A DNA stretch of 64,000 nt from NCBI RefSeq assembly GCF_017963645.1, contig NZ_JAGMWN010000005.1, positions 62,001-126,000 on the forward strand. Direction: 5' to 3'. Below the pieces are notes generated by a model that was not told the DNA's origin, did not search any database, and saw only the letters and a program-made list of their open reading frames with translations. Origin of the DNA: Marivibrio halodurans (GTDB lineage: Bacteria > Pseudomonadota > Alphaproteobacteria > UBA8366 > Aestuariispiraceae). This document shows, in pieces, positions 59,952-63,993 of this stretch; positions within the stretch are counted from its first letter, which is position 1; every line of letters begins with the position of its first letter. The position numbers and the translations under genes were made by a program.

Positions 59952-60556
59952 TTCCAGGGCGCCATCGCGATGAATCCGGGCAGCGCCTCCACCCGCGCGA
60001 GCCATTGGGTGAGCGCGGGATAGCCGTCGCGCTTGATCCCCCCTTCCGCGCTGACCGATGTGTAGGAATAGAGGGCGATGTCGGCGACCGTCGCGCCGTC
60101 CCCCACCAGCCAGTCGCGCGCCGTCAGGTGATCGTCCATCAGCTTGAGCGCCGCATGTCCCTTCGCCTGCCGTTTCGCCAAGAGCACCCTGCGTTCCGCC
60201 GTCATCTCCAGATGGTGGCACCAGAAGCGGGCGACGGCGACATTGGGCTCGTGATTATACTGCTCCCAGAATAGCCAGGAGAGGCATTGGGCACGGGCGA
60301 ACGGCTCCTCCGGCAGGAAGGCCGTTCCCTCCGCCAGATAGCACAGGATCGCGTTCGATTCCGGCAGGCAGCGCCCATCCTCCAACTGCAGCACCGGGAT
60401 CTTGCCGTTGGGGTTGAGCGCCAGGAAGGCCGGCCTATGCGTTCCGCCCGAATGAATATCGTGCAATTCCAGCCGGAAATCCCGCCCCAGCAGGGCGAGC
60501 AACAGGCGCACCTTGTGGCCGTTACCGCTTTCCAGACAGTCATGGAGCGTAAGCAT
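59945..60556 (-). CDS. Glutathione S-transferase family protein
   Basis: The 203-residue protein has the thioredoxin-like N-terminal domain with NGHKVRLLLALLGRDF, the glutathione-contact segment NGKIPVLQLEDGRCLPESNAILCYLA (cis-Pro and the Glu-Ser pair), and the helical C-domain with ADIALYSYT. The start at 60556 follows GAGGGAGGGG. The substrate is unknown. A maleylacetoacetate isomerase role for the homogentisate genes 33 kb away cannot be inferred from position. Confidence 0.92.
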   Translation of the reverse strand: MLTLHDCLESGNGHKVRLLLALLGRDFRLELHDIHSGGTHRPAFLALNPNGKIPVLQLEDGRCLPESNAILCYLAEGTAFLPEEPFARAQCLSWLFWEQYNHEPNVAVARFWCHHLEMTAERRVLLAKRQAKGHAALKLMDDHLTARDWLVGDGATVADIALYSYTSVSAEGGIKRDGYPALTQWLARVEALPGFIAMAPWNG

Positions 60557-60777
60557 CCGTCCCCTCCCTCTTTCGCGCGAGATGATACCGGAATTCTGCG
60601 GGCGACACGCGCGCCCGCAAGCGAGATTTTCAGGGCGCGAGACCAAGCCCCGCTTGGCCTTGCCCAGATATTCCGACTCTCATTGCCTAGTGATGCCTAA
60701 GTTTGAAATTCGCCGGGATTGTCGCCCTGTCGCGAACCTGCCCGACCTCTTAAACGCTTCGGGGAAGTGAGGAAGGG

Positions 60778-60854
60778 GCGGCCCCGCTAAAGTGGCGGAG
60801 GAACCTAAGTCCCAAGTACGCCGACTCCATCCGAACGGGGCCGCTTGCGCCACT
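60778..60854. repeat. Crossing inverted repeats (pseudoknot-like arrangement)
   Basis: GCGGCCCCG (60778-60786) is complementary to CGGGGCCGC (60836-60844), and AGTGGCG (60791-60797) is complementary to CGCCACT (60848-60854). The order L1-L2-R1-R2 crosses, so in RNA both stems together would make an H-type pseudoknot. It might be a structured RNA or a replication or recombination site remnant; I recognise no known family. Confidence 0.5.
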
Positions 60855-60963
60855 ATACACTACGCAAACATAGATAGTGAACGGTAAAGACCCTAAGGAC
60901 AGAAGGTGATCGACAACGCCATGCAGATCGCAATCTGTAAGCTAAGGAAAAATATGGTTAAAA

Positions 60964-61143
60964 ATGGCCGTGAAGGAACTCCAACGCATAGACAGCATGT
61001 CTCGGCTGGGTCTGGAACATGAAGAATACTGTCATTGAGTCAATCGACTCGACCGTCGCATAGCCAGGATCGCGCGGGCGACACAAGAAATGCGAGAAGT
61101 AAAAAGAGTGAGTCGTTATAATCACTTAGTGAATATTGACTAA
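60964..61143 (+). pseudogene. Degenerate small ORF with internal TGA
   Basis: From an ATG at 60964 the frame encodes 24 residues (MAVKELQRIDSMSRLGLEHE and on), meets TGA at 61036, and stays open for another 34 codons rich in Arg (VNRLDRRIARIARATQEMRE) to a TAA at 61141. The amphipathic, coding-like pattern across the stop suggests a small broken gene in the island. It may be chance. Confidence 0.3.
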
Positions 61144-61163
61144 ACATCTGATTCTTTTATAAT
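61136..61163 (+). promoter_or_regulatory. Near-consensus sigma-70 promoter giving a probable leaderless transcript
   Basis: TTGACT (61136-61141) and TATAAT (61158-61163) are separated by 16 bp. The expected start of transcription, about 7 bp beyond the -10, falls on the methyltransferase ATG at 61170. No ribosome binding site precedes that ATG, so translation would be leaderless. Confidence 0.75.
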
Positions 61164-61169
61164 TTTCTC

Positions 61170-61766
61170 ATGGATACGACGTACCACCTTAACGGCAGCT
61201 ACAAGCCTACGCTCAAGCGGTTCGCTGATCTTAGTGGGCCGGATTTTTTCCCGACACCGCGCTGGGCAACATTTGCTCTAATCGATAATGAAAGGTTCCA
61301 AGGTGACATTTGGGAGTGCGCCTGTGGTGATGGAGCCATGTCTGGCGTGTTGGAGAACACGGGAAGCTCCGTGGCTAGCTCTGACCTTTATGATCGTGGA
61401 TATGGCGAGCGAGGGGTGGATTTCCTCTCACCCGACCGACACGCTAACAACATCGTCACCAATCCGCCCTACAATGCCGCCGAGGGCTTCGTTCGTTCCG
61501 GTTTGATATCAGCGGATCAGAAATTCGCGCTCTTGTTGCGTTTAGCCTTCCTTGAAGGGGCGAACCGCCAGCGCACGATATTTTCGAAAGCCCCGCCCTC
61601 TCGAGTTTGGGTATTCAGTGAGCGCATTACCTTTTACCCTGCTGGCGTCGAGCGGAAAGGTAGCGGGACTACGGCATACGCTTGGTTTGTGTGGGACAAG
61701 GATGCCCCAAGCACAACAGAACTCCGCTGGTTGGAGCCGGGCTATAAGGCGCGTTACTCGGATTAG
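61170..61766 (+). CDS. Small phage-type DNA N6-adenine methyltransferase-like protein
   Basis: The 198-residue protein has the motif order of an N6-adenine methyltransferase: a motif X-like FFPTP (residues 26-30), the SAM-binding motif I ECACGDG (49-55), an acidic residue in SDLY (72-74) for the ribose, and the catalytic NPPY (98-101). It is very small, with no evident target-recognition domain, like solitary phage or prophage methyltransferases. The codon usage and base composition are AT-richer than the neighbourhood. The gene converges on a winged-helix-like gene with a 4-nt overlap of stop regions. No restriction endonuclease is adjacent. Confidence 0.75.
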   Translation: MDTTYHLNGSYKPTLKRFADLSGPDFFPTPRWATFALIDNERFQGDIWECACGDGAMSGVLENTGSSVASSDLYDRGYGERGVDFLSPDRHANNIVTNPPYNAAEGFVRSGLISADQKFALLLRLAFLEGANRQRTIFSKAPPSRVWVFSERITFYPAGVERKGSGTTAYAWFVWDKDAPSTTELRWLEPGYKARYSD

Positions 61767-62080
61767 GTCCGCATGCGGAGATACTGCCTTCCATGCTCAG
61801 TGATGCGGTAACCGGACCGAGGAACGTGTTCAAGATATCCTTCACAAATGTAATTGCCGGGCGTCTCATAGTGCGACTTAATATTACGTATACGCTGTTC
61901 CCACACTTCTTCACGCTGCCGAGGAACTGATCGGCGCCGATCTGCGTTGGAGAGGTCGACATAGTCGGGAACCTCCCGTTTCATTCGTGGAAATGTCGCG
62001 ATGCCGTTTGGTTGGCCCGCAGCAATCTGTAGCACCGCAAACGCTATATCGTTCTCTGTAACGCTAACATTCTGCATCAT
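61763..62080 (-). CDS. Small winged-helix-like protein (Mrr N-terminal-like)
   Basis: The 105-residue protein begins after AAGGAGAG. Its second half (WEQRIRNIKSHYETPGNYIC followed by RSGYRITEHGRQYL) resembles the winged helix-turn-helix N-terminal domain of Mrr-type and HNH restriction proteins, in which a final beta-wing leads into a TExG motif. There is no nuclease domain, so it may be a stand-alone regulator or a fragment. It is in the low-GC island, converging on the methyltransferase with 4 nt shared at the stops. Resemblance is from motif recognition only. Confidence 0.5.
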   Translation of the reverse strand: MMQNVSVTENDIAFAVLQIAAGQPNGIATFPRMKREVPDYVDLSNADRRRSVPRQREEVWEQRIRNIKSHYETPGNYICEGYLEHVPRSGYRITEHGRQYLRMRT

Positions 62081-62316
62081 GGCCCTCTCCTTATATCTAG
62101 TTGTAATAATATAAATATATCTCCCAAAGAGCGAGTCGCTTTGCGTCTGGGGCGTATTTGGGAAATTATTCGCCCCAGCTAAAACTCATATTGCGATACG
62201 ACCTTACGTCTCCCTCGCTTTCGCACGGCGCGAATCCGTGCCACCGTTTCGGCTGGACATGGAACGGCGCCTTTCCCGCCCGGTCCGGCGGCGGGGATCA
62301 GCGGAAACGGACGGTC

Positions 62317-63993
62317 ATGACGCAGGCGACGGCGCGGGACGCCCTTCTCGCCGCCCTGAAGGCGGATCATTTCTATGCGGGTCTGCGGGCGTTCGAGACC
62401 TTGGACGACCCCGCCGCCCTGCCCCCCGGCACCGCGGAGCGGATGATCCATCTGACGCTGGCGCTCGGGCATTTCGATCAGTTGATGCGCATCATGCGCG
62501 CGCCCGGCATCGCGGCCTCGCTATCGCCCGCGATGCGGGAGCTCGGCACGCTCGGCCTCTTCATCGCCGGACGGGGCGATCTCGTCGCTTCCGGCGCGGT
62601 CCCGCTTTCACCGAAGCGCCAGGAACTCGGGCTGCTGCTCAACATGGCGCAATGCCTTGAACAGGTGGGGGAAAGCCGCAAGGCGATGAGCATCATGGCC
62701 GGGCCGTTGAAACAGGCCGTGGCCACGAACGATCTGGCCGGCCGGGTCGCGATGCATATCGGGGCCTCGCTGTTCGAGGTGGAGGACAGCGTCCGCTTCG
62801 CCGCCATGGCCAAGGCCTTGGGCCTCGCCCCCGACGACAATTGGGTCCTCTACCAATCCCTGCGCTACGTGCCCGTGCCGCGCGACGTCGCGCGTCTGCG
62901 CAAGCCGGGCGAAGCGGTCTTCCCGAGCAAGAAGATGCCGCTCCACACCTGCATCGGTGGACGACAACGCATCGCCGCGCGTGACGGCGCGGGCTGGGAC
63001 GGGCTGGGGGTCGATGCCTTCCGACCTGCGCCGAGCTATAGGCCGGACGCGCTCTCCGATCTCGTCGCGAGGCAGGCGGAGGCCGCGCGCACGGCCTTGC
63101 GGGCCCCCTGGTTCGCCGAACGTCTGGACGGCCTCGCCCGCGTGCGGGAGCGTTTCGCCCCCGATGCCGCCGATCCGATCCAGGTAATCTCCACCGGGCG
63201 GGCGGGAACGACGGCACTGCAGCTTTTCCTGCGGCGCGGAGCCTATCTGCCCTATCATACCTTCGTGTGGCAATTGGGCCCGCGACACCGGTTCGACCTG
63301 TTGAACCGGCTGTTGACGGACGCGAACGACCCCGCATCCCTCGCCCCCGCCTTGCGGCGTTATCTATCGGCCCGGATCACCGAATGGATCGCCGCCTACC
63401 GACTCGGCAAGACGCCGGTGATCGTCAGTCATTGGGATGTGATCTTCGCGCCCTTCCTGCGCGCCATGTTCCCGGAGGCACGCTTTCTCCACCTGCACCG
63501 CCGGGCGGAGGGGGTGGCGGCATCCCAGGTCGGCAAGCGCCAGTTCGCGATGAGCCAGTTGATCGCCCTGCCGACCCATCGCGACCGCGGCGAGGGGACG
63601 AACGAAGGGGCGTCGTTCCTCCTGCCGCCCTGCGACATGCTGCCGGACTGCGTCGGCTGGTACATGGCCTTCACGCGCCATTTCCACGAGGCGCTGACGC
63701 GGGCCTTCCCCTCCGACCGGCATGCGGATCTGGCGAGCGAGGCCTTGTTCGAGGCCCGGCCGGAAGCCCTGGACGCCCTGCATGCCGTCTTTCCCGACGC
63801 GCCGGTCACCCAGGATATGGTCCGCCGACATTTCGGCCGTAAGATCAACGAGAAGCAGGATCACAGCTTCGACGACCCGAACACCGCCGGCTATATCGAG
63901 CGCGCGCTGGCCGCCCATGACGCCCGGCGCGCGGCCGCGGAGGTGGCGCCACCCTGGACACCCAGCCCGAAGCCGGCAGACACCGATTCTTAG
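62317..63993 (+). CDS. Sulfotransferase-family protein with TPR-like N-terminal domain
   Basis: The 558-residue protein has an N-terminal helical region (residues 1-170) resembling degenerate TPRs and a C-terminal sulfotransferase fold. The PAPS 5'-phosphosulfate loop is STGRAGTTALQLF (residues 292-304), and the 3'-phosphate segment is FPEARFLHLHRRAEGVAASQ. Such proteins sulfate glycans or proteins, but the acceptor is unknown. The reading frame is open upstream to 62158, yet the AT-poor start at 62317 marks the return to host base composition. It is complete: the stop lies 7 bp before the window end. Confidence 0.78.
   Translation: MTQATARDALLAALKADHFYAGLRAFETLDDPAALPPGTAERMIHLTLALGHFDQLMRIMRAPGIAASLSPAMRELGTLGLFIAGRGDLVASGAVPLSPKRQELGLLLNMAQCLEQVGESRKAMSIMAGPLKQAVATNDLAGRVAMHIGASLFEVEDSVRFAAMAKALGLAPDDNWVLYQSLRYVPVPRDVARLRKPGEAVFPSKKMPLHTCIGGRQRIAARDGAGWDGLGVDAFRPAPSYRPDALSDLVARQAEAARTALRAPWFAERLDGLARVRERFAPDAADPIQVISTGRAGTTALQLFLRRGAYLPYHTFVWQLGPRHRFDLLNRLLTDANDPASLAPALRRYLSARITEWIAAYRLGKTPVIVSHWDVIFAPFLRAMFPEARFLHLHRRAEGVAASQVGKRQFAMSQLIALPTHRDRGEGTNEGASFLLPPCDMLPDCVGWYMAFTRHFHEALTRAFPSDRHADLASEALFEARPEALDALHAVFPDAPVTQDMVRRHFGRKINEKQDHSFDDPNTAGYIERALAAHDARRAAAEVAPPWTPSPKPADTDS

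Follow-up and report, generated by a model that had tools for sequence, protein, structure and literature searches.

The locus described here raises the question of whether a lone adenine methyltransferase and a small winged-helix protein, set in a stretch of unusually low GC content, are what is left of a larger defence system or form a complete unit in their own right. The window, by which we mean the entire 64,000-nucleotide stretch of Marivibrio halodurans DNA that was analysed (contig NZ_JAGMWN010000005.1, positions 62,001 to 126,000), has a GC content of 0.65-0.69 (about 67%) in the 500-bp segments flanking the island. Between roughly 60.5 and 62.5 kb this value drops to 51-59% (0.556, 0.510, 0.540 and 0.588 in successive 500-bp segments from 60501 to 62500), which bears out the sharp fall relative to both flanks reported in a preceding sequence-only reading. 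Also as described there, the list of open reading frames (ORFs) yields only two intact genes for the island, which encode a 198-amino acid adenine methyltransferase (61170-61766, plus strand) and a 105-amino acid winged-helix protein (61763-62080, minus strand). These genes are convergent, or tail to tail, with stop codons that overlap by 4 nt. No ORF inside the island corresponds to a nuclease, an integrase or a phage structural gene, again in agreement with that reading. No RNA family was found between positions 60400 and 62500, neither protein matched an NCBIfam model, and neither had a PADLOC match up to an E-value of 1. Elsewhere in the window, the segment 46001-46500 exhibits an extreme AT skew (-0.497) in a stretch that is otherwise ordinary, with 71% GC.

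The methyltransferase carries the SAM motif ECACGDG at residues 49-55 followed by NPPY at residues 98-101, which is the motif order of the gamma class, and residues N98, P99 and P100 are invariant. Residues 21-194 match the PHROG 799 'DNA methyltransferase' profile (E-value 1.6e-56), which places the protein in this family. Re-examination of the PDB hits returned by Foldseek for the predicted structure (pLDDT 86.5) identified M.TaqI as the best structural match (Z 15.9, rmsd 2.4, 157 residues). With motif I preceding motif IV and a Rossmann methyltransferase fold, the protein is a gamma-class (TaqI-like) N6-adenine DNA methyltransferase, and the earlier assignment to the N6-adenine type is therefore upheld. 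It shares 38% identity over 180 residues with phiLM21_p027, published as an enzyme that methylates GANTC with CcrM-like specificity (PMC5537653). This resemblance makes GANTC the likeliest target, presumably yielding m6A, a prediction based on one 38%-identical enzyme together with the promoter context described below. In Alphaproteobacteria, methylation of GANTC, the target sequence of CcrM, times transcription and division. The methyltransferase described here lacks the beta-class domain PF01555, and thus is not a CcrM orthologue.

A search for the same gene pair in other genomes, which had been proposed as a check on the island, gave a clear result, and the refuting outcome named in advance, with the two genes never side by side in any other genome, clearly did not materialise. 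A scan of GTDB contigs yielded 160 relatives of the methyltransferase, and among the best 80 of these, which span 68-89% identity, 76 have a convergent winged-helix gene against the 3' end of the methyltransferase gene. The same convergent arrangement is present in 16 of 19 close relatives on viral contigs. In a class-wide sample of 385 genomes, six carry the methyltransferase and the winged-helix gene adjoins it in all six, so the pair is rare and patchy, yet nearly inseparable. It also resides on two small plasmids, and its cultured carriers include Nisaea nitritireducens DSM 19540 and Bradyrhizobium species. The pair is conserved in Alphaproteobacteria and in their plasmids and phages. More distant phage homologues of the methyltransferase (loci L101-L161) have no winged-helix partner.

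Among 100 relatives examined, 93 carry the pair as a complete conserved unit, with the two genes overlapping in 74 of the 93 pairs and by exactly 4 nt in 35. Across these neighbourhoods, transposases are the only further gene family that recurs near the pair. DNA homology between the window and the other loci starts at 61100-61110, where the first of the conserved upstream GANTC sites lies, and ends at 62062. Because this homology begins ahead of the methyltransferase gene, its promoter belongs to the unit. These observations bear directly on the proposal, made first in the sequence-only reading, that the island is a stripped remnant of a restriction-modification or anti-phage system, and on the related idea of a prophage remnant. 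Small size, low GC content and similarity to Mrr_N would be in keeping with a remnant, but the two genes are the whole of the conserved unit in nearly all relatives and no defence-system match exists. In addition, an endonuclease is found neither in the island nor as a recurrent neighbour of the pair in relatives, so the pair does not qualify as a restriction-modification system. The conserved pairing largely refutes the idea of a remnant, which we regard as barely credible. What has been lost is the transposase of the carrier and not a restriction gene, and the function favoured by the evidence is the other option offered earlier, namely an epigenetic switch module.

The identity of the carrier is indicated by loci in which the mobile element is intact. 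In locus L060 (Jannaschia), the pair and an IS1-family transposase gene (PF03400) are located between perfect 22-bp terminal inverted repeats (GGTAGTGTCTCAGTTTGAAATT), and the element is flanked by the 8-bp target duplication CGAATTCA. In locus L072, the pair accompanies an IS1595-family transposase gene (PF12762); the repeats that enclose them are perfect over 23 bp, and the 8-bp target duplication is AGCGCCTC. With transposase, terminal repeats and duplication all present, these two loci are IS1 and IS1595 transporter insertion sequences with passenger genes. At locus L003, an IS1595 transposase is accompanied by imperfect repeats of 40 bp, and transposase genes or fragments of the two families lie near the pair in more than 10 loci. 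The pair is carried as a passenger by both IS1- and IS1595-family elements. Two of the loci have further content: the IS1595-family element at L003:7832-11736 includes a third passenger, a Schlafen AlbA_2 / RecG-C-like gene beside the pair, and at L074:8890-12223 there is an IS1595-type transposase along with a large second DNA methyltransferase ORF (DPPFN motif) between the methyltransferase and its winged-helix partner.

Searching the vicinity of the pair in all loci for short inverted repeats without mismatches yielded no common motif, and the ends of the elements were detected only when longer distances and mismatches were allowed. A matrix for IS1-type terminal inverted repeats was built from eight ends, leaving out those of the window itself. 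Of 127,958 positions scored in the window, the best is a decayed left repeat at 60689-60710 on the plus strand (AGTGATGCCTAAGTTTGAAATT), and the second best is a candidate decayed right repeat at 62182-62203 on the minus strand (GGTCGTATCGCAATATGAGTTT). These two ends form an inverted pair of IS1-type repeats that brackets the low-GC island. Taken alone the right end is weak (of about 99 control-orientation loci, 2 reach similar scores), but its place and orientation fit the element. On the left, the stretch 60694-60759 resembles the terminal 66 bp of IS1-type ends found elsewhere in this genome and in that of a congener, at 79-82% identity. Because the two best IS1-type ends enclose the island, it is best read as a decayed IS1-type passenger insertion. 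No transposase ORF is present between the ends and the flanks do not match, leaving no recognisable target duplication, and the window copy is accordingly described as a decayed derivative that has lost its transposase. The island previously placed at 60850-62150 is real, although the element that contains it is slightly larger, at about 60689-62203. Relatives offered no readable empty site, as the left-hand neighbour genes are split over two contigs in the congeneric genome and the search for a relative of the gene on the right found none. Among plasmids, the leader (60600-61169) has no relative. Another IS1-type end, GGTAGTGTCTCAGTTTGAAG, is present in the same genome (L192 near 1980, C18:286774 region) and probably belongs to a further element with different cargo.

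The winged-helix protein is predicted with high confidence to adopt the fold for which it is named (pLDDT 94), as had been suggested, and it has no nuclease domain. The accompanying label 'Mrr-N-like' needs some qualification. The match to Pfam Mrr_N (PF14338) has an E-value of 5.5e-6 and a score of 26.9 bits, below the gathering score of 29.5. Given this score and the predicted fold, the protein is related or similar to Mrr_N without being filed as a member of PF14338. Its structural matches are not specific, with Z at most 8.0 and many MarR/PadR-type folds tied. In the third helix (H3, residues 59-69), Q62 and N66 are invariant and R65 is near-invariant, and an invariant H70 follows directly, as expected for a family that reads one short DNA element. 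Known 6mA-reading winged helices of the DpnI type recognise ApT in GATC, not GANTC (PMC11037411). On the Zymomonas mobilis plasmid pZM36 (L184:1975-3303), a protein with the annotation DinD (DNA damage-inducible protein D) has a relative of the winged helix as its C-terminal part.

The two proteins diverge at different rates, with mean identities of 73% for the methyltransferases and 34% for the winged helices, and the distances within one family correlate with those within the other (Mantel r 0.38, p 0.001). A fast-diverging partner beside a slow methyltransferase, the tight convergent overlap of the genes and their mobile carriers are all features that could be expected of a selfish addiction pair, wherein the winged helix would be harmful or repressive unless the methyltransferase modifies its sites, such that loss of the pair is penalised. 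However, there is no nuclease or toxin fold, and CcrM of the host would already provide GANTC methylation. Furthermore, the methyltransferase occurs without a partner in several loci (L044, L057 and L059), and relatives of the winged helix occur without the methyltransferase in L199 and L201. We therefore consider stabilisation by addiction to be quite improbable.

The predicted promoter of the methyltransferase gene (61136-61163, plus strand) comprises a -35 element TTGACT (61136-61141) and a -10 element TATAAT (61158-61163), with a GATTC site at 61150-61154 within the spacer. Only 6 nt separate the -10 element from the ATG at 61170, and thus the mRNA is probably leaderless. Immediately upstream is an operator-like element, GAGTC-GTTA-TAATC-ACTTAG (61110-61129, plus strand), recognised from the start of homology and from column conservation. 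Its first GANTC is intact in the window and its second is degenerate (TAATC), with GAATC at this position in locus L002. Two further sites, GAGTC at 61037-61041 and GACTC at 61046-61050, fall outside the stretch that is conserved between loci.

These sites reflect a pattern common to the family. The 130 nt preceding the methyltransferase start codon in 98 loci contain 237 GANTC sites, compared to 63.4 +/- 7.1 in first-order Markov shuffles, and GATC is depleted in the same regions by this comparison. The density is 2.42 sites per 130 nt versus 0.41 in 349 control regions, which are intergenic and precede other genes of these loci (p 5e-38, a value that overstates independence because the loci are related). 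Two promoter architectures recur, one with direct repeats of the form GANTC-N4-GANTC-RCTTA and the other with palindromes (TGAGTCAnnnTGACTCA). Aligning the upstream pair of sites in 35 loci by RCTTA, and not by GANTC itself, gives conserved columns for G, A, T and C, with N as the least informative position of each site. For the spacer site, columns anchored on the start codon place its G exactly 20 nt before that codon in 36 loci, with N fixed and TGATTCT as the commonest context. The promoter is loaded with GANTC at fixed positions. Such an elaborate promoter would be left unexplained if the module were anti-restriction cargo that premethylates GANTC in incoming DNA against HinfI-like restriction, with a winged helix that only tunes expression. 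Carriage by plasmids, phages and transposons, as well as the abundance of phage homologues, would suit this role, but hosts already methylate GANTC via CcrM, and we judge it very unlikely.

The partner gene also offers some hints of a link to these sites. An additional N-terminal part of about 120 residues, with no Pfam match in two examples, is present in the partner at eight loci (L006, L009, L010, L028, L045, L049, L068 and L091). Promoters in these loci, which are related to each other, have a mean of 0.75 GANTC sites compared to 2.61 elsewhere (p 3e-4), hinting that partner and operator go together. In several of the same loci, the methyltransferase promoter has a GAATC within TAGAATC that resembles a -10 element. 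The architecture of the operator is not associated with winged-helix subfamilies A and B, because the same type occurs with both, and reading of the sites in a subfamily-specific manner is therefore not favoured. Upstream of the winged-helix gene itself, GANTC is mildly enriched (87 sites versus 64.7 +/- 8.5 in 94 loci), and the window has one such site 53 nt before the start codon (62133-62137). A tandem GACTCGACTC about 50-70 nt before the winged-helix start in L039, L043, L075, L078, L092 and L100 is a possible second operator.

The core site of the promoter, TGATTCT, fits the GcrA-associated motif YGAKTCK (PMC7987155), and GcrA prefers methylated GANTC (PMC3667746). The host genome encodes GcrA as well as an intact CcrM-type enzyme, its only PF01555 match being a separate gene (1393-2511 of L171). 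Control by the CcrM/GcrA system of the host would account for the enrichment of GANTC in the promoter equally well on its own. In one alternative, the promoter sites would only place the cargo under this control, the methyltransferase would have some other target, and the winged helix would be either a regulator with no connection to the methyltransferase or the subunit through which it binds DNA. This alternative is consistent with the GcrA-type core site, with the small size of the methyltransferase, whose model shows no distinct domain for target recognition, and with the finding that most phage relatives of the PHROG 799 type are found in non-alphaproteobacterial phages and may differ in their targets. 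Yet the nearest tested relative is GANTC-specific, and the upstream GANTC pair is extra to the core site, with an N that varies as in a methylation or operator site. This alternative is thus unlikely, though it deserves consideration.

On balance, we think it probable that the island is a decayed IS1-family insertion whose surviving cargo is a convergent two-gene GANTC-methylation module, tied to the CcrM/GcrA circuit and equipped with a winged-helix regulator. The methyltransferase would add m6A at GANTC, the mark made by CcrM, outside the control of CcrM. The GATTC beside the -10 element would make the methyltransferase promoter respond to this mark, most likely through GcrA-sigma70. The upstream GANTC pair would serve as the operator of the winged helix, which would sense the mark or repress transcription there. 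Binding at these sites would close a feedback loop, of either sign, and the carrier would keep a supply of methylation independent of the cell-cycle timing of CcrM. More tentatively, this may be a class of mobile epigenetic module not described before, in which transposons spread a second GANTC methyltransferase and a winged helix dedicated to reading the GANTC mark, under a leaderless promoter that senses methylation at several sites, whereby selfish elements tap or override the CcrM/GcrA circuit of the alphaproteobacterial cell cycle. The sequence-only reading had missed the ends of the transposon, the abundance of GANTC in the promoter and the fact that the pair is widely conserved.

Each component has known precedents: small phage methyltransferases for GANTC, transposons that carry passenger genes, and control by CcrM/GcrA. 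The methyltransferase is homologous to phiLM21_p027 and other small NPPY-type GANTC enzymes of alphaproteobacterial phages (PHROG 799 type), which bear an NPPY/F/W motif (PMC5537653). Those enzymes are located in phage replication modules and lack a winged-helix partner, whereas the pair is convergent, resides on transposons, plasmids and chromosomes, and has its own GANTC-rich promoter. The module presumably shares its methylation site with the CcrM/GcrA circuit, and its promoter core fits the GcrA motif. However, CcrM belongs to the beta class, in which motif IV precedes motif I, and has a C-terminal domain; no sequence relation to the methyltransferase was detected, and the module is accessory and patchy, unlike the CcrM/GcrA circuit. 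Typical IS1 and IS1595 transporter elements have the same transposase, terminal repeats and 8-bp duplications that surround the pair in L060 and L072, but the window copy has lost its transposase. In contrast to the usual passengers of such elements, the pair is common to two IS families and also occurs without any transposase. DpnI, HhiV4I and their fusions likewise link a winged helix to an adenine methylation mark, whereas the protein described here is standalone, nuclease-free and Mrr_N-like, with a presumed GANTC context and a putative capacity for methyl reading.

Our non-exhaustive search of open-access literature found neither the pair nor its promoter described. The pair is small, its promoter is recognisable and its carriers include cultured strains, so that two ideas can be put to a direct test, namely that the CcrM/GcrA system is exploited by mobile elements and that an Mrr_N-like winged helix on its own can read adenine methylation. 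If the proposed function is correct, a mobile unit that makes the mark of CcrM would constitute a horizontally acquired input into the cell-cycle methylation circuit.
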